A stretch of 64,000 bases of DNA, taken from contig JAHEZH010000004.1 of assembly GCA_023251155.1 (NCBI GenBank), positions 15,306-79,305 of the forward strand, in the 5' to 3' direction. The translations under genes were made by a program, and so were the position numbers. The DNA is from Flammeovirgaceae bacterium (GTDB lineage: Bacteria; Bacteroidota; Bacteroidia; Cytophagales; Cyclobacteriaceae). Of this stretch, positions 6,910 to 29,787 are shown one piece after another. The notes under the pieces were generated by a model, which was not told the DNA's origin, did not search any database, and worked only from the letters and a program-made list of their open reading frames with translations. How positions within the stretch are numbered: the first letter of the stretch is position 1; the number at the start of each line of letters is the position of its first letter.

Positions 6910-7311
6910 TTACACTCCATTGAGTACACTTCTAATTTTATCCGTCATCAAAAACTGTTTTCCCACAAATGATTTTTCAATACGGATACCATTTATGATT
7001 TCAGAATTGAACTCATCCAATTGCTCAGCAGGAACCCAAAGCTCCTGGTGATAAGGAAGGCCTACTGTTTGAATTTGAAATTTCTTAAAGTAATCATCTG
7101 AAATATCAAAAGCCGTAACAAAGCCCACACCATCCGAATTTGGATCACCCCTATTCCATTGTTCAGCAATTTCGGCAGCATACTTAAAATTAAGTACAGG
7201 ATAAAAAATAGGTTGCCAGAAAAGCCGTGGTGGGAACCGTTTCATTCCTGAGTCAATAATTAAAGCGAGCTCATTTGCTCCGGTTGGTCTGTATAGTGTT
7301 ATGTTTTTCAT
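6910..7311 (-). CDS. ADP-ribosyltransferase-like small protein (family often annotated ADP-ribosylation/crystallin J1)
   Basis: LYRPTGANELALIIDSGMKRFPPRLFWQPIFYPVLN ... HQELWVPAEQLDEFN; overlaps Thg1-like gene. Confidence 0.6.
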   Translation of the reverse strand: MKNITLYRPTGANELALIIDSGMKRFPPRLFWQPIFYPVLNFKYAAEIAEQWNRGDPNSDGVGFVTAFDISDDYFKKFQIQTVGLPYHQELWVPAEQLDEFNSEIINGIRIEKSFVGKQFLMTDKIRSVLNGV

Positions 7312-8075
7312 TTAAGCTCTGTTCTTAATAATTCCCTGATCATCAAATTGTAATTCTCTCCTTTTGGAAGATCTTCTTGCATCTTTAACTGATTTCTACA
7401 AACAACAACCTCTTCATTCGTCTTTGGGTTAATCGATTGTCTATCCACTGGTGAATAGAAGAATCCAACACCTCTTTTCTGCCATGAAGGAATTGAATTG
7501 TAATTGATTCCCTGTTTAAAAAGCAATTCATTTTTATCTGCGACTGACATTCCGCGCAATTGCTCTGTTACCACTGATAGGCTCACTCCTGAATCTCTAC
7601 GCTTCCAGTAGCAATAAGCATTCAATGCATTACGATTCGCATCCTCTGCCCGCCAGCGAAAATAATCCACCACCAGGTCGCTATTCGGCAGTGGAACTAT
7701 TCTACAGTCGAAAGCACCGATTGTATTCATAGCCAACGAGAAGCGAGCACTTGCTTCGCCAGCGAGAACAGAGACGATCTTGCGCGTTTTACGCCCAAAT
7801 CCATTTTCTCCTTTATCGAAGAGCAAAGAGATTTCATCACTTTGAGTATAGCCATAAGTGATCTTAAATCCACAATCCATCAAATGCTTAACTACTTCTA
7901 TCATGGTATCTCTAAAACGCATATCAAACGGACGTGCTAATGGCAGTATTTCTTTTGTTAGTTTAGTAAAGCCACGTCCATCCAAACGCACAACGATGTA
8001 TACTTCAGGTGTCGCAATCTGATCCATGCTTAATTCAAAAGCACGCATCTTTTTATCCAACTCATCAAATTTCAT
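7308..8075 (-). CDS. tRNA-His guanylyltransferase (Thg1)-like 3'-5' polymerase
   Basis: PEVYIVVRLDGRGFTKLTKE...MRFRDTMIEVVKHLMDCGFKITYGYTQSDEISLLFD. Confidence 0.9.
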   Translation of the reverse strand: MKFDELDKKMRAFELSMDQIATPEVYIVVRLDGRGFTKLTKEILPLARPFDMRFRDTMIEVVKHLMDCGFKITYGYTQSDEISLLFDKGENGFGRKTRKIVSVLAGEASARFSLAMNTIGAFDCRIVPLPNSDLVVDYFRWRAEDANRNALNAYCYWKRRDSGVSLSVVTEQLRGMSVADKNELLFKQGINYNSIPSWQKRGVGFFYSPVDRQSINPKTNEEVVVCRNQLKMQEDLPKGENYNLMIRELLRTELK

Positions 8076-15809: not shown

Positions 15810-17543
15810 ATGCCTGTCACCCGAAACGCCCTCGTTCGCTACCGTACCATCGACAACTGCCTGAGAAACAGGCAACGCAAATGGACGTTGGAAGATTTAA
15901 TCGATACGTGCTCGGAAGCACTCTATGAATATGAAGGCATAGATAAAGGAGTGAGCAGGCGATCCATACAAATGGACATTCAACTCATGCGAAGCGATAA
16001 GCTGGGTTATAATGCCCCCATTGTTGTGCTGGAAAAGAAGTACTACACTTACGAAGATCCGGACTATTCCATCACCAACATTCCATTGACCGACCAGGAT
16101 CTGGGCAAGCTCACCGAAGTAGTAGAGATACTGCGACAGTTCAAAGGCTTCAGTCATTTTCAGGACCTGAGCGGGATGGTGCAACGACTGGAAAACAAAA
16201 TCCATTCTGCAAAAACACAACAGGAACCCATCATTGACTTTGAGAGGAACGACCATCTCAAAGGATTAGAGCATATTGAAACTCTCTATCAAACGATCAT
16301 CAATAAAAAGGCCATTGAACTTTGCTATCAGTCGTTTAAGGCACGGACCTCCAACACCTTTACTTTTCATCCTTATTATCTCAAGGAATACCGCAACCGC
16401 TGGTTTGTGATTGGTATCAAAAAGAAGAACACACCTGTCATGAACCTGGCGCTTGACCGGATCATCAGTATCACAGAAACGTCAGTAAAGTATCAGCCAC
16501 GAGAAAATTTCACCATCTCTTCATTATTGAATAATGTGATCGGTGTTTCTGTAAACACGGAAGGGACTACTGAGCACGTAGTGTTTATGGCCGATTATCA
16601 TACTGCTCCTTACATCCTTACCAAACCCTTGCATCACTCACAACAATTAGTAGAGAAGCGGCAGGACGGAATCGTTTTTTCCATTGATGTACAGCTCAAT
16701 TTTGAACTGGAACGTGAGTTGCTTGGCTTTGGTGACCGAATTAAAGTAATAGCCCCGGATAGACTAAAACGCAATCTGAGAGAAATATTTTCCAATGCCG
16801 TTGATCTTTACCAGCACGAATTCAGTACTTCCAGCTTGCAGAACAACCTGCAAAAACTGAAGCACAAAGGTTTTATGATGCTGAATCATCTCTACCTGAA
16901 GAAAGAAGTGAACCAAATAAAACTGGCTGTTCATCAACATTTGCGATCAACCGGACAGCCGCCCGATACACATGCTGTGCGTTACCTGCTTAATGAAGTT
17001 CCTTCGCTCAGGAAAATGATATTTAACACTAACCTGCTACAGCTTCTTCAGCGGATCGATTCCAGATTATTTTTAACCAAAGCCATTTACTTTGATAAGA
17101 CACCGGAAGCCAACTGGTACGTTACCTGGCATCAGGACATTATTATCAATGTAAAAGAAAAAATAGAAACAGAAGGCTTCACCGGCTGGACGAAGAAAGC
17201 AGGAGTTCATGGCGTATGCCCTCCGGATGAAATATTAACCAATACGATTACTGTCCGTATTCATCTGGACGATGCGAATGAACATAATGGTGCGTTGAAA
17301 GTCATTCCGGGGTCACATCAAAAGAAGCTGAGCGATGAAGAAATCAGTGTCATCGCTCAGAATAGTTTTTCACAAACATGCCAGGTAAGTGCCGGATGTA
17401 TTCACGTGATGAAACCTTTGCTCCTGCATTCCTCTTCGAAGGCAACCAATACTTCGCACAGGAGAGTGATTCATCTGGAGTTTAATACGATGGAACTGCC
17501 CAATGGCCTGGAATGGGCCGAGAGATTGGAGTTGAATAAATAG
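15810..17543 (+). CDS. WYL-domain transcriptional regulator fused to a C-terminal PhyH-like dioxygenase domain
   Basis: N-terminus wHTH/WYL (IELCYQSFKARTSNTFTFHPYYLKEYRNRWFVIGI); C-terminus WYVTWHQDIIINV...HNGALKVIPGSHQKK...CIHVMKPLLLHSSSKATNTSHRRVIHLEF. Confidence 0.85.
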   Translation: MPVTRNALVRYRTIDNCLRNRQRKWTLEDLIDTCSEALYEYEGIDKGVSRRSIQMDIQLMRSDKLGYNAPIVVLEKKYYTYEDPDYSITNIPLTDQDLGKLTEVVEILRQFKGFSHFQDLSGMVQRLENKIHSAKTQQEPIIDFERNDHLKGLEHIETLYQTIINKKAIELCYQSFKARTSNTFTFHPYYLKEYRNRWFVIGIKKKNTPVMNLALDRIISITETSVKYQPRENFTISSLLNNVIGVSVNTEGTTEHVVFMADYHTAPYILTKPLHHSQQLVEKRQDGIVFSIDVQLNFELERELLGFGDRIKVIAPDRLKRNLREIFSNAVDLYQHEFSTSSLQNNLQKLKHKGFMMLNHLYLKKEVNQIKLAVHQHLRSTGQPPDTHAVRYLLNEVPSLRKMIFNTNLLQLLQRIDSRLFLTKAIYFDKTPEANWYVTWHQDIIINVKEKIETEGFTGWTKKAGVHGVCPPDEILTNTITVRIHLDDANEHNGALKVIPGSHQKKLSDEEISVIAQNSFSQTCQVSAGCIHVMKPLLLHSSSKATNTSHRRVIHLEFNTMELPNGLEWAERLELNK

Positions 17544-23275: not shown

Positions 23276-26200
23276 TTGCGAATAGTTAAACAAATCAAAC
23301 TTTATTTTCAGGAAGGAACTTCCGACAAGGTATATGAAATTGATTTATGCGAATCGGGAGACGGCTTTCTGGTCAACTTCCGCTACGGAAGAAGAGGTGC
23401 GGCCCTCAAAGACGGAACCAAAACGATATTTCCTGTTGAGCTAGCCGAAGCTGAAAAAGTATTTCATGCGCTGGAGCAGGAGAAAAGAAAGAAAGGATAT
23501 GTCGCTGCTGGTGAAACAGCAATAATCACTTCTTCCGTTCCGTCACCCACTGCGGGAACGGACAAGCGGAAAAAAGCAATCGTTAAATTGCTTAAAGCCG
23601 CGGCTGCCGGAGACGAGCACGAGAGCTGGAAATTATCGCGTATGATCTGGCGCGCTGGCGATTTAAAAATCAGCGAAGCCATTCCTCATATTGTTAAAGT
23701 AGCGGATGCTTCTGATCCTTTTAATATCTATTCCGTCATCTGGGCTATTGCACGATGCGGATCGGTCAATCACATTCCTTTTTTGCAAGACCTTCAAAAG
23801 AAGGGTGGGCTGCCGGTGCACACGCAGCAATTGATCACAGAGGCGTTATTAAAGCTGACAGAAGGAAAAGAAAAAGAAGTGCTTCTGGAAACCATCACAA
23901 CACTTCTTCCGGCTCCGCTTCGTAAACATATTATAGATAAAGACTACACTGCAGTTGAGCACCAGTTACGCGAGTATTTATTTGTGATGAAGGCCGCCTT
24001 CAATGATTACCTGATCGGCATCTATCAATTATCAAGGCACGACATCGCCCTGCACGAAGTCTTTATTCGTGTACTGAACGACATTCCTCTTAGCTTCAAT
24101 TACTTTAAATACATCCGCCAGATTTTCAAAACGGCTGAAATGCTGGAAGATTATGCTGCGTACGGGATTATCGCCAAAAATGTAGAGAAGCAGGCATCTA
24201 ACTATAAGAGTTCCTCATGGATGAATGCCGATCATAAAAAGAAGCAGGCGTTCTCTAATCGCACCAAGGTGTATCTCACCAACCGTGTATTGCGCTCGTT
24301 ACAAAATTATGGCGAAGCAAACGATTCATTGTATGTAGAACTGGCTTCCGAAATCATTTTGGCCTTTGACGATACTAAAGATCTGACTGCACCGTATCAG
24401 ACTTCAGAAGTTTCTTACAAATACAACTCAGCTACGCGACAACATACGCGCGAAGAAAAAATCACTTACTTCGACAGCTATAGTCACTTTCAGGCTTTCA
24501 ATTTTATTCTGATTAAGAATAGCATACGTTACGAAAACAAAAATGGAAGCTGGGTGCGGTCTGCATCTTATGTGCCTGCTACTACACAGGCACGGGAAGA
24601 AGCGTTTCCTCACTTATGGAATAAAGCTGCGGAACAGGTAATTGAATTATTGTCCTTCAGTAAATCGCTTCGTGTACATGAATTTGCACTGAAGGTCTTC
24701 ATTGCCAATCCGGAATTTGAAAAACAAATAGAAATCAGTCATGTTATTCACTTTCTCCAGACCACCTTTTCCACCACCCAGCAACTTGGTCTGGAACTAG
24801 CCAGGAAAAAATACGATCGCAATTCGCCGCACAAGCAGTTGTTGATTGCATTGCTCGACAATTCATTGGAGGAAGCGCGCAAACAGGCAGAACAATGGAT
24901 AGGTGATCATCACCATGCACTGCTCGAAGATGCCGAATTCATTGCCTCACTGGTGAAAATGAAAAGAGCAGAAGCGCATGCCTGGCTACGCGGCTTCCTC
25001 GCGGTAACTTCCTTAAAAAAGGACCAGGCTGAAATAGCAATTGCAAAAATCATTGCGTTTGTTGTTTCGTTCGAAATTAAAACGGAGGACGATAGACGTT
25101 ATCTTGTTCAGTTATCTGACTCGCTGGTGCTGTTGTTTGGCGATCACCTGTCAGCCATCAGCCTCGATATCATTAAAGATCTCTTCCTGCATGCTTCTGC
25201 TGAGGTACATGCATTGGCAGGGAAAATTTTAATAAAGCATCGTATCAGCCCAGAGAAAATTCCTTCCGGGTTTCTCCAGATTCTGCTTCAATCGGAAAAC
25301 GCCAGCTCCCGTGGGCTAGGAATTGCTCTTTTAGGTAAGTTTCCTGAAGATGCACTATTAGAGAAAAAAGAAATGCTGGTCAGCTTTTGCCTTTCGCCTC
25401 TTGCCGATGTGCGCAATGCGGTGAAACCGATTATCTCACGGCTGACCAAAGTTTATCCTGAATTTGGAAAAGAGCTGGTCGATCTTTTTGTTCCGGCGTT
25501 CCTGATAAAAGAATCGTATGAAGGCGTACATGATGACTTGCTAAGCTTACTCTCTCACGAATTAAGTGATAGCCTTCACATTATTCCAAAAGAGCGTTCA
25601 TTGCTTTTATTGAACTCAAAGTATCGCACTTCCCAATTGATGGGACTTATTCTTTTAAAGAAGAACATCAAAGACGAAGAGTTAACAGTACCTGAATTAG
25701 TGAAGCTGGGCAGCAATGCACTGGAGGAAGTGAGACTATATAGCTGGAACTGTTTTAGAAAATATCCGGAAAAGATTAAATCGGCTAAAGATGAAGCATT
25801 AAAACTGACCGATTCCTATTGGGCAGATACCCGCCTGTTTGCTTTCGACTATTTTACAAACACTTTTACCGCAAGCGAATGGACTACCGATTTATTAGTA
25901 ATGCTGTGCGATAGCGTAAAAGAAGACGTTCAGGATTTTGGAAAAGCAATGATCACTCAATTCTTTGAAGCTGAAAATGGAACCGAATACTTATTAAAAC
26001 TAAGTCAGCATCCCAGTACCAAAGTACAACTGTTCACCACCGCCTACCTCGAAAACTATGCGTACGGAAAGCCGGACATCATTCAGCAGCTCAAACCTTA
26101 TTTCATCACGCTATTATCACACGTAAATAAAGGCAAAGCTGCGAAAGCAAGGGCTTTTGCTATCCTGAGAAAAGAAGCGTTGAAAAATGAAGAAACGGCA

Positions 26201-26356
26201 AGGATAGCGGCAGACATCTTCACCCGTGTCTCTGTTTCGATGGCCATTCATGAGAAAGCAGAATGCATTGCCGCACTTCGTGATATTCATAACACCTATG
26301 CATCGATAAGTTCACCGGTAATTAAAAAAGTGTATTCTGACTACAGCAAAGTATAA
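23276..26356 (+). CDS. WGR-domain protein with HEAT/ARM-like repeats (retron accessory protein)
   Basis: N-terminal WGR signature LYFQEGTSDKVYEIDLCESGDGFLVNFRYGRRGAALKDGTKT; long alpha-helical repeats; TTG start in ORF track. Confidence 0.8.
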   Translation: MRIVKQIKLYFQEGTSDKVYEIDLCESGDGFLVNFRYGRRGAALKDGTKTIFPVELAEAEKVFHALEQEKRKKGYVAAGETAIITSSVPSPTAGTDKRKKAIVKLLKAAAAGDEHESWKLSRMIWRAGDLKISEAIPHIVKVADASDPFNIYSVIWAIARCGSVNHIPFLQDLQKKGGLPVHTQQLITEALLKLTEGKEKEVLLETITTLLPAPLRKHIIDKDYTAVEHQLREYLFVMKAAFNDYLIGIYQLSRHDIALHEVFIRVLNDIPLSFNYFKYIRQIFKTAEMLEDYAAYGIIAKNVEKQASNYKSSSWMNADHKKKQAFSNRTKVYLTNRVLRSLQNYGEANDSLYVELASEIILAFDDTKDLTAPYQTSEVSYKYNSATRQHTREEKITYFDSYSHFQAFNFILIKNSIRYENKNGSWVRSASYVPATTQAREEAFPHLWNKAAEQVIELLSFSKSLRVHEFALKVFIANPEFEKQIEISHVIHFLQTTFSTTQQLGLELARKKYDRNSPHKQLLIALLDNSLEEARKQAEQWIGDHHHALLEDAEFIASLVKMKRAEAHAWLRGFLAVTSLKKDQAEIAIAKIIAFVVSFEIKTEDDRRYLVQLSDSLVLLFGDHLSAISLDIIKDLFLHASAEVHALAGKILIKHRISPEKIPSGFLQILLQSENASSRGLGIALLGKFPEDALLEKKEMLVSFCLSPLADVRNAVKPIISRLTKVYPEFGKELVDLFVPAFLIKESYEGVHDDLLSLLSHELSDSLHIIPKERSLLLLNSKYRTSQLMGLILLKKNIKDEELTVPELVKLGSNALEEVRLYSWNCFRKYPEKIKSAKDEALKLTDSYWADTRLFAFDYFTNTFTASEWTTDLLVMLCDSVKEDVQDFGKAMITQFFEAENGTEYLLKLSQHPSTKVQLFTTAYLENYAYGKPDIIQQLKPYFITLLSHVNKGKAAKARAFAILRKEALKNEETARIAADIFTRVSVSMAIHEKAECIAALRDIHNTYASISSPVIKKVYSDYSKV

Positions 26357-26358
26357 GT

Positions 26359-27999
26359 ATGGAGTTCGATTATAAATTTAAAGGCGACACTACGGTGAAA
26401 AGCACCGCTCATGCCACCTCCATGAGCTTTGCCCCCGATGTATATCGTGAGCCTACTTATTTTTCAGGCTACCTTAATAAACACATCCCTTTCCGTGAAG
26501 CGATCTCCGCACTTCACGATATTGTGGTTTCTGATTTTCGCTTTAAACCAAAAGATAAATCAGATTATAAAGCATGGGCACAGCAGCAGGAAGACATCTG
26601 GCTGGCCGAATACCTGAAAGGCACTACTGAAGTTGAACAAAAACTGAAAGCCGTCCGCGAAGAACTAGCTGTCATTCAAAAGCAACGTAATGACCTAACA
26701 GCTCCTTACTATAAAGCAAGAAGTAAATACTTTGAGTTCCTTTATCATGACAACCGTGATGCCTGGTTTGTACTTGACCCCGTTATCACCATTCATCCGG
26801 ACGAATTATTTTTTGAATGCTTCAGCCAGGATGAATCTTCGTATGGGAAACTGGGATGTAGTCACAATGTATTCAATAAAGTAAGTGAGTTTAAATGCGG
26901 CACCACAAATATTGACTACTCCTCTGATCTGTATAATGAATTTCAAAAAATAAGAGAATACAAAGATACGCACTTCAATGTGGATCCATCCGGATTTGAA
27001 GTACAGACCGCAAATGAGGAAAATTATAAAGAAGTAAAGATTGATGTTCCCGCCAGCTGGGTCCGTGGATTTTTACAGGTAAGCTCGGCCATGTCTATCC
27101 CAGCTACCAGTTTTACACTCCACCCGATGGATGTGTATAATATCTGTTTTCTGTTACGCCGGCACAAAGAAAAGGAAGGACCACGATCCATTCGATGGAT
27201 ATTGAAACCAGGAGAACCGGTGCGGTTGATTTTTGAACCGTGGAACTATGAAATCAAATGTGGCCGTTCATTTTATGAAGGCACTGAAGCAAAGGAAATC
27301 CGCATCTGGGGAAGACGCAGATTATTATTGTTGGAAAGATTGATTCCGATAGCCAAACAATTTAAAGTAGTACTACTCGGCTCCGGCTTACCTTCTTTTT
27401 ATATCGCTGATCTGGGTGATTTGAGTTTCACATTAGGGCTTTCCGGCTGGACAGTAAACGACTGGTCGCGGTTAGGGAACTTTGATTTGCTTGCACCACG
27501 CGCTGAAGTAGATGCGATGTCGATGCAAAAAGTATATGCCGGACTGAAAGAGAACTGGGTGGAGAAAGCGGATCATCTGGCACTGCGACTCAATATGGAT
27601 AAAGGGACTGTGTTAGGTGCACTCTCTGCATTTACACAGGCAGGCAGAGTAATTTATGATATCAACAACGGATCATATCGCATCCGTGAATTGTCCCGCG
27701 AGTCACTTCCACTCGATGAACTTCGTTTCTCCAATCCAAGGGAAGAAAGCGCCAATCGTTTTGTGCTGACCAATAAAGTAAAAGTTGCCGTAGCGATAAG
27801 AGAAGGAAAGCAAGTACTGACCGGAACGGTGATGGATGCTTCTAAAGCGTATGAGCCTGAGTTAGTGATTGATAAAGACGATCGTGCTGTGAGTGGCAAA
27901 TGCACCTGTAACTTTTATAGTCAGAATAAAATGATGCAAGGACCATGTGAACACATGCTGGCGTTACGGATGATGATGCGGGAAAAACAAAAGCAGTAA
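26359..27999 (+). CDS. SWIM zinc-finger protein (retron accessory protein)
   Basis: C-terminal CTCNFYSQNKMMQGPCEHMLAL (CxC-n-CxH). Confidence 0.8.
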   Translation: MEFDYKFKGDTTVKSTAHATSMSFAPDVYREPTYFSGYLNKHIPFREAISALHDIVVSDFRFKPKDKSDYKAWAQQQEDIWLAEYLKGTTEVEQKLKAVREELAVIQKQRNDLTAPYYKARSKYFEFLYHDNRDAWFVLDPVITIHPDELFFECFSQDESSYGKLGCSHNVFNKVSEFKCGTTNIDYSSDLYNEFQKIREYKDTHFNVDPSGFEVQTANEENYKEVKIDVPASWVRGFLQVSSAMSIPATSFTLHPMDVYNICFLLRRHKEKEGPRSIRWILKPGEPVRLIFEPWNYEIKCGRSFYEGTEAKEIRIWGRRRLLLLERLIPIAKQFKVVLLGSGLPSFYIADLGDLSFTLGLSGWTVNDWSRLGNFDLLAPRAEVDAMSMQKVYAGLKENWVEKADHLALRLNMDKGTVLGALSAFTQAGRVIYDINNGSYRIRELSRESLPLDELRFSNPREESANRFVLTNKVKVAVAIREGKQVLTGTVMDASKAYEPELVIDKDDRAVSGKCTCNFYSQNKMMQGPCEHMLALRMMMREKQKQ

Positions 28000-28041
28000 T
28001 AAATTTTTGTAATCAGAATTAATAAAATTAGTTTTAACACA

Positions 28042-28261
28042 GTAGCAGCAGAGGGTATTATGACTTGCAACCCGGGCGGTGGATCACCGTCCTTGTACAC
28101 AGCTTACTAACGCGCCACTGGCCCGTTCTTAACTGTGCGATCCTGCCACTACCCCGTCATTCCCGGTGCGAATTCTGGGAATTGGAATAACGGGGTAGTG
28201 GCGTCTCGCTGGAGTTGACCGATCCAGTCCTCCGAAAGACGAAGGATATCCTCGCTGCTAC
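28042..28261 (+). ncRNA. Candidate retron msr-msd RNA
   Basis: a1 gtagcagcagagg (28042-28054) complementary to a2 cctcgctgctac (28250-28261) with one bulge; msr hairpin ggcggtg-gat-caccgtcc; msd-like hairpin ccactaccccgt...acggggtagtgg (28146-28157/28190-28201). Confidence 0.8.
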
Positions 28262-28275
28262 TTTTCATTTTACTT

Positions 28276-29787
28276 ATGGCCGGCTCACAAAACACACGTC
28301 AGCAACTTTACGATCGCATCAAAGCTTCCACCAAAGAAGCGGTGATACTGGAAGAGATGAAACGTCTCGGCTTCTGGAAATCAGAAGAGGGAATGCCTTC
28401 ACTACCCGAATTGATCATCGAGAAGGAGGCGGTATTGATCAAAGAGGTACGTGAATTAGTTGAGCAGCAGCGCAAATACAAAAACAAAGAAGAAGCACTC
28501 AAAGAAGTAAGAAAGCTACGATTAGAAAAATCAAAGCTTAAGCGCGAAGAAAACAAGAAAACAAGAAAACAGAAACGGGAAGAAAAAGCAGCACACTGGA
28601 AAGAGCGAAAAGAAAAAGACATTCTCTACTTAGGGGAAAAAGTATCGAAAGGGTTAAATAACAAAGAGAGTGATCTCGCAAAATTAACATCACTTCAGTT
28701 ACCCGTACTTCAAAATGCAGAAGACATTGCTGCAGCGATGGGTATTCCCGTAGGGCAGGTTCGTTTTCTCTCTTTTCACCGTATCGTAAGTAAGACGACA
28801 CACTACAGACACTTTTATATTCCTAAAAAGACCGGAGGCAAGCGTTTGATTTCCACCCCCATGCCACGACTGAAAAGTGCGCAATACTGGGTGCTGATAA
28901 ATGTGTTAGATAAAATTCTTACCCATGATGCTGCGCATGGCTTTGTAAAGAAGAGATCTATTGTATCAAATGCATTACCTCATGTAAAAGCGGAAGTAGT
29001 CATCAATATGGATCTTAAGGATTTCTTCCCTTCCATCAGTTATGTGCGAGTAAAAGGATTATTCCAGTCATTTGGTTATTCAGAACAAGTCGCCACTATT
29101 CTTGGGTTGATCTGTACCGAACCGGAATCAGACGAGATTGAATTGGATGGAGAAACGTATTTCGCTGCCAATGGAGAACGCTTCTTACCTCAGGGTGCCC
29201 CCACAAGTCCTGCTATTACCAACATCATTTGCCGTAAGCTGGATGTACGCCTTAAAGGCATTGCTTCGAAATTAAATTTCAATTACACGCGCTATGCCGA
29301 TGATCTTACTTTCTCGGCATCAGGTGAGAGTGCTGCCAGCACTAAAACACTTCTCGGCTTCGTAAAGAAAATAATCAAAGAAGAGAATCTGAACATTCAT
29401 CCTGATAAGCTACGGGTGCTAAGAAAAGGTGCCCGCAAAGAGGTGACCGGAATTGTGGTGAACGATAAGCCTTCGGTCAATGCAAAAGAGTTGGATCGTT
29501 TCCGGGCATTATTATTTCAAATTGAAAAAGACGGAATAGGAGGAAAGCATTGGAAGAATTCAAACAACCTGCTCGCCTCCATGAAAGGATACGCCAGCTT
29601 TGTGGCCATGGTAAATCCGGAGAAGGGAAATCCAATTAAGGAACGGGTCAATAAAATTCTGGCGGCCAATCAATTCACTCATGTAATCAAACATAAGTCC
29701 AAAGCAATGATCGCCAAGGATGCCGCGAAAAACACGAACACTGCTTCAACCAGCGAAGTAAAAAAACCGTGGTGGAAATTCTGGTAA
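28276..29787 (+). CDS. Retron-type reverse transcriptase with charged N-terminal extension
   Basis: FYIPKKTGGKRLISTP, MDLKDFFPSI, LPQGAPTSPAITNI, YTRYADDLTFS, KEVTGIVVND (VTG motif). Confidence 0.95.
   Translation: MAGSQNTRQQLYDRIKASTKEAVILEEMKRLGFWKSEEGMPSLPELIIEKEAVLIKEVRELVEQQRKYKNKEEALKEVRKLRLEKSKLKREENKKTRKQKREEKAAHWKERKEKDILYLGEKVSKGLNNKESDLAKLTSLQLPVLQNAEDIAAAMGIPVGQVRFLSFHRIVSKTTHYRHFYIPKKTGGKRLISTPMPRLKSAQYWVLINVLDKILTHDAAHGFVKKRSIVSNALPHVKAEVVINMDLKDFFPSISYVRVKGLFQSFGYSEQVATILGLICTEPESDEIELDGETYFAANGERFLPQGAPTSPAITNIICRKLDVRLKGIASKLNFNYTRYADDLTFSASGESAASTKTLLGFVKKIIKEENLNIHPDKLRVLRKGARKEVTGIVVNDKPSVNAKELDRFRALLFQIEKDGIGGKHWKNSNNLLASMKGYASFVAMVNPEKGNPIKERVNKILAANQFTHVIKHKSKAMIAKDAAKNTNTASTSEVKKPWWKFW

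Follow-up and report, generated by a model that had tools for sequence, protein, structure and literature searches.

The 64,000-nt stretch of a Flammeovirgaceae bacterium genome analysed here (the window; contig JAHEZH010000004.1 of assembly GCA_023251155.1, positions 15,306-79,305, genome size 6.44 Mb) carries a retron locus in which genes for a WGR-HEAT/ARM protein and a SWIM zinc-finger protein are followed by an msr-msd non-coding RNA (ncRNA) and a reverse transcriptase (RT) gene (Table 1). Inspection of the open reading frames (ORFs) confirmed the three co-directional ORFs on the + strand given in a preliminary description of the sequence, as well as the 2-bp gap between the WGR-HEAT and SWIM genes. 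That description had also assigned the locus to retron type XIII, a type reportedly named by Mestre et al. in 2020, and this call was borne out by PADLOC, in which type XIII models were the top match for all three proteins by a wide margin (for the RT, 637 bits for RT_XIII versus 310 for the next RT model; HEAT-ARM_XIII also matched the partner genes, with 98 bits). The locus has the same three proteins as the type and its usual gene order, the order WGR-SWIM-ncRNA-RT being common to most linked relatives. An alternative order, ncRNA-RT-WGR(-SWIM), was seen at loci L036, L038, L039, L104, L097 and L040. We conclude that the locus is almost certainly a complete type XIII retron and that, judged from its sequence, it is an ordinary new case of an already classified type, with no departure from type XIII.

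Table 1. Features of the retron locus, in window coordinates.
Feature	Position	Strand	Basis or remark
WGR-HEAT/ARM accessory protein (1026 aa; start codon TTG)	23276..26356	+	PADLOC WGR_XIII, 1086 bits
SWIM zinc-finger accessory protein, 546 aa	26359..27999	+	PADLOC SWIM_XIII, 784 bits
Predicted Bacteroidota-type promoter of the ncRNA	28006..28036	+	Consensus scan
msr-msd ncRNA	28042..28261	+	Fold z -7.7; covariance model match
a1 arm	28042..28054	+	Pairing with a2; pairing runs on toward 28066
Candidate priming (branching) guanosine	28067	+	Within nearly invariant CTTGC, beside CTT/AAG pairs
msr hairpin P2, 8 bp with a 3-nt loop	28074..28092	+	Covariation; 99.4% of cells paired
Long-range helix P3, 5' strand (ACTG and CGTTC)	28117..28128	+	Covariation
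Predicted minimum template copied into msDNA, about 125 nt or slightly more	28117..28241	+	Inferred from tolerated mismatches
Variable msd stem P4, 5' arm (GCGATCCTGCCACTACCCCGTCATTCC), CTA core	28137..28163	+	Inverted-repeat alignment of 62 stems
Variable msd stem P4, 3' arm	28184..28209	+	Inverted-repeat alignment of 62 stems
Long-range helix P3, 3' strand (GACCG and CAGT)	28217..28228	+	Covariation
a2 arm	28250..28261	+	Pairing with a1; inner extension AAG 28242-28244
Retron RT, 503 aa	28276..29787	+	PADLOC RT_XIII, 637 bits

The segment 28038-28268 folds at -104.8 kcal/mol, compared with -71.4 +/- 4.3 kcal/mol for shuffled sequences. Within it, the a1 and a2 arms lie where the preliminary description had placed them and the short msr hairpin that it reported was recovered. 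The a1/a2 pairing has an inner extension, CTT at 28064-28066 with AAG at 28242-28244, which was formed in 184 of 186 cells, and the TTGC containing G28067 was invariant in 21 relatives; by analogy with other retrons, G28067 is the candidate priming guanosine. The long msd hairpin had been described as 12 bp plus a further 5 bp, and both the hairpin and the 5-bp part (ATTCC/GGAAT) are present, but the first Watson-Crick run is 13 bp long (28145-28157 with 28190-28202). The helix P3, which encloses this stem, had gone unnoticed, as had the inner a1/a2 extension, the candidate priming guanosine and the predicted promoter. The predicted promoter, consisting of TTTG (28006-28009), a 19-bp spacer and TAGTTTTA (28029-28036), ends just upstream of a1 and matched 9 of 10 consensus positions, a level reached by none of 50 shuffles; a perfect consensus stands at the equivalent place in L003 and L059-L062, whereas some relatives gave no such promoter. 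Transcription is predicted to start at or near a1. An Rfam search of the ncRNA matched no retron family, and the ncRNA has no entry in Rfam 15.

To build a covariance model, relatives were collected by RT search and 21 ncRNAs, including that of the window, were aligned to a structure of named parts (P1 inner pairs, P2, P3, the P4 base and the apical hairpin). This replaced RNAalifold on a sequence-only alignment, which gave a poor structure because the msd stems are not alignable by sequence. In the 21-ncRNA alignment 89.9% of cells were paired and 25 of 32 pairs changed on both sides, with a covariation score of 0.544 versus 0.197 for shuffled and at most 0.136 for slid alignments; the helices were picked by scanning the same alignment, which favours the percentage paired, and firmer support comes from the covariation counts. 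Changes on both sides were found at 5 of the 8 pairs of P2 and at 8 of the 9 pairs of P3, the two parts of which were 96% and 89% formed. The model, of the kind that the preliminary description had proposed for a check, shows strong compensatory change and recovered the window ncRNA (28063-28245, 150.4 bits, E 4e-39, the window sequence being among the 21 building sequences), and it found a single copy in the genome. For a1/a2, which is not part of the model, native duplexes of 62 relatives averaged -19.2 kcal/mol versus -8.0 kcal/mol when arms were swapped between loci, and 98% of them were more stable than the median of their swaps (Wilcoxon p 9e-12, an optimistic value because related loci are not independent). 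Thus the a1/a2 and msd stems, which had been expected to lack conservation among close RT relatives if the retron assignment were wrong, are conserved with compensatory change. Judged by these comparisons, the ncRNA is real, conserved and type-specific, and is shared with other type XIII loci.

The mismatches that each helix tolerates point to the form in which it works. An A.C mismatch in RNA becomes T.G in the cDNA, whereas G.U becomes C.A. Among 62 distinct ncRNAs, P2 had 70 G.U and no A.C, the G.U being mostly confined to two positions, whereas P3 had no G.U, 22 A.C and 15 other mismatches. In P4, an inverted-repeat alignment of the 62 stems that treats G.U and A.C alike gave 1580 Watson-Crick pairs, 1 G.U and 41 A.C, many of the last appearing to be one recurrent C.A beside the apical part. 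This was the second count for P4; a first one on ViennaRNA folds (87 G.U, 25 A.C) was set aside because such folds extend the helix with extra pairs at both its base and its apex, and folding programs such as ViennaRNA favour G.U. With one vote for each of 33 lineages (85% scaffold identity), P2 retained 40 G.U and no A.C, while P3 had 11 A.C and no G.U; in P4, 5 G.U remained among the basal pairs, and the apical hairpin had 2. Because of what each mismatch becomes in the cDNA, selection seems to act on the DNA form of P3 and P4 but on the RNA form of P2. From these patterns, the multicopy single-stranded DNA (msDNA) is predicted to reach past 28117. The mismatches in P3 and P4 also support msDNA production indirectly, and we consider such production by the window retron likely.

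Comparison of closely related ncRNAs showed that the stem and the rest of the molecule change at different rates. Two or three tandem ncRNA copies lie near a single RT at L009, L010, L012, L014, L026 (at 7063-7854), L046, L066, L067 and L083 (at 1228-1929). In one pair from each of six such loci, 16 of 657 scaffold positions differed, compared with 48 of 169 in the stem arm (Fisher p 7e-23, a descriptive value only, since the pairs were hand-picked). Three-copy loci entered with a divergent-stem pair, L026 as 11/27 (6/25 and 16/31 were also available) and L083 as 10/29 (2/25 and 8/29 also available) with a scaffold figure of 1/110, and the pairs from L009 (scaffold 40/118, stem 13/28) and L046 (scaffold 21/98, stem 19/43), which are more diverged, were left out. 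The L014 pair had 0 differences in 114 scaffold bases versus 6 in 28 stem bases, and two strains of Saprospira grandis differed at 0 of 98 and 6 of 36. Nearly all of the stems share a core: CTA/TAG, a motif spotted by eye before counting and not specified beforehand, was counted in 54 of the 56 different arms, shuffling giving 30.4 +/- 3.5, and 32 of the 33 lineages have it; a motif search of the stems returned cACTAC with a log-likelihood of 93.6 versus 12.5 +/- 2.3. The idea that the stem copies some site in the genome was dropped: apart from the stem's own arms, the genome gave a single match, with three mismatches, and no target was found. By these comparisons with about 60 relatives, the ncRNA is a conserved scaffold bearing a rapidly changing hairpin that seems to evolve in its DNA form.

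In some relatives the parts of the system are dispersed. In genomes G110 and G125 (L085-L090), some 65 kb separate the RT from a WGR-SWIM-ncRNA unit without an RT of its own, and both species have one more, solo ncRNA at a shared position between housekeeping genes; in G550 and G602 the RT and SWIM genes are on separate contigs. In the genomes checked, the RT was present in 9 of 9 and SWIM in 8 of 9, the exception being G577, which is 72% complete. The co-occurrence of RT, SWIM and ncRNA even when unlinked suggests that they act in trans, with contig breaks limiting some of the distance claims.

The RT contains the YADD (TRYADDLTF) and VTG (EVTGIVVN) motifs that had been read from the sequence and also the retron motif NAXXH (SNALPHV); N232, H236, V390, T391 and G392 are invariant in 23 relatives. 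Its best PDB matches are retron RTs, the closest solved one by sequence being that of Ec86 (Eco1, type II-A; E about 1e-70 over the RT domain), a retron whose partner proteins differ. Unlike the Ec86 enzyme, the type XIII RT has an N-terminal extension of about 135 aa (residues ~1-135 in the window RT) and an aromatic C-terminal tip, here KKPWWKFW (about 29764-29784). Most type XIII RTs finish with such an aromatic tip, preceded by a low-complexity linker, and WW falls within the final 12 residues in 20 of 41. The C-termini of four proteobacterial RTs (L028, L035, L042 and L050) are hydrophobic and resemble membrane helices. A docking or membrane-anchoring role for these C-termini is possible. 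A type XIII-like set was also observed in a metagenome-assembled genome (MAG) of an Asgard archaeon (Sigynarchaeota; L044, 3162-10163; SWIM_XIII 520 bits, RT_XIII 513 bits); the ncRNA model gave no match there, and contamination of the MAG is possible.

Of 16 relatives of the WGR-HEAT protein, 15 had Pfam WGR and 13 had HEAT_2; the start position is shared with relatives, several of which also have a non-ATG start. The SWIM finger was detected in 21 of 21 relatives, and its ligands CxC-x12-CxH (C515, C517, C530 and H532) are all invariant. Domain searches of the window proteins and their relatives found no recognised enzymatic domain in either partner. The yehF-yehQ cluster of E. coli K-12 (WGR, MoxR ATPase, VWA, SWIM) likewise pairs WGR-domain and SWIM-domain genes, but it has no RT or ncRNA, and profile comparison showed no homology beyond the short SWIM finger; homology to yehI/yehQ (WGR-DUF4132 and YehQ-type SWIM) was not supported (hhalign E 0.24 and 0.055, probabilities at most 1%).

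How these parts may work together can be modelled on other retrons, from which we take priming, msDNA, inhibition, sensing and toxicity (PMC8989520, PMC13405049, PMC12887533). The ncRNA would start near 28042, and the RT would prime from the 2'-OH of G28067 and copy from 28241 back past 28117. The resulting msDNA would be the long hairpin P4 closed by a second DNA helix, P3, and attached to the msr RNA. As in other retron types, the RT-msDNA particle would keep both partner proteins in an inactive state, and a DNA-binding region in either SWIM or WGR-HEAT would touch the stem of the msDNA. If a phage protein bound, cut or modified this stem, the partner proteins would be released or activated, and growth would stop. 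In retron-Kva2 (type IX), which serves as a working model only, a winged-helix accessory protein binds msDNA and the D5 protein of phage T5 mimics it (PMC13405049), and Retron-Eco8 is triggered by the phage single-stranded DNA-binding protein (PMC12887533). The effector of Kva2, however, is a HEPN RNase, which is absent from the window locus, and the partner proteins have no shown sequence relation. We regard this account of a type XIII retron making msDNA for defence, apart from the stem as sensor, as probable.

The sensing step is more tentative. The variable stem with its CTA core may be the phage-sensing part, its rapid change tracking phage proteins, and the pattern of variation suggests diversifying phage sensing; we put this forward with some reserve. 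It is also quite possible that the stem is a purely structural spacer, the sequence of which drifts under a pairing constraint while it senses nothing and the trigger acts at another point, such as the RT or, via WGR, free DNA ends. Two observations favour such a spacer: compensatory change alone shows only selection for pairing, so that the stem could vary simply because nothing but pairing matters, and the L059-L062 (g263) stems hardly differ from one another, which shows that rapid change is not universal. Two others weigh against the wider account of the retron: the only winged-helix sign in the partner proteins is weak helix-turn-helix matches in a few SWIM homologs, and in Xanthocytophaga the RT adjoins a WGR-beta-propeller gene (L025, 6155-7651; L085, 6652-8151) rather than WGR-HEAT, which is possibly a partner exchange. 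A spacer, however, fits less well with the compared tandem pairs, which had 0-6 differences per ~110 scaffold bases versus 5-11 per ~28 stem bases, and it would leave the CTA core in need of explanation: the excess over the 30 arms expected from shuffles indicates that the stem sequence is not free.

Phage defence of the abortive-infection type is, by analogy, the probable function of the locus. We consider it unlikely that a working RT and ncRNA instead serve another role, such as a response to DNA damage or stress, although several features would suit such a role. WGR domains elsewhere bind DNA breaks, the RT of the Asgard MAG homolog is fused to BRCT, another DNA-break-associated domain, and the ten other window ORFs tested for defence systems gave no match except a WYL-domain protein (15810-17543). 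Against this, the distribution within the host order is patchy (29 of 390 genomes), which fits defence, and to our knowledge all retron types tested for function are anti-phage. That the locus is decaying or silent and no longer makes msDNA is very improbable: relatives do decay (SWIM and RT appear broken in L101 of G656 and the RT in L095 of G577, with the ncRNA intact in both and sequencing error possible), but in the window none of the three frames is interrupted or shortened, the motifs for catalysis are preserved, as are a1/a2 and the msd stem, and the promoter-like sequence is conserved.

The locus lies between a 3-hydroxyisobutyrate-dehydrogenase-like gene on one side and an unrelated convergent gene on the other. 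No close relatives were found in IMG/VR, the RT matches in named phage records were all distant, with query coverage of 57% or less, and plasmid matches were limited to one record, from Methylobacterium bullatum.

We found no experimental work on type XIII in the literature searched, which left most subscription papers out of reach, and the type appears uncharacterised there, with partner proteins that carry no recognised enzymatic domain. For this family, sequence comparison by itself yields a mismatch signature that hints at the helices functioning in DNA form, and the type XIII ncRNAs yield predicted msDNA boundaries. It is possible, though doubtful, that type XIII retrons are modular phage sensors, in which a fixed RNA scaffold bears an exchangeable DNA hairpin diversified under phage selection, and that some genomes carry several such hairpins, in tandem or scattered and served in trans by one RT, giving one effector set several triggers. 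Should the stem prove to be the sensor, the tandem copies, in which one scaffold is combined with different stems, would be natural swaps for the question of how retrons recognise phages, which is central in the field.

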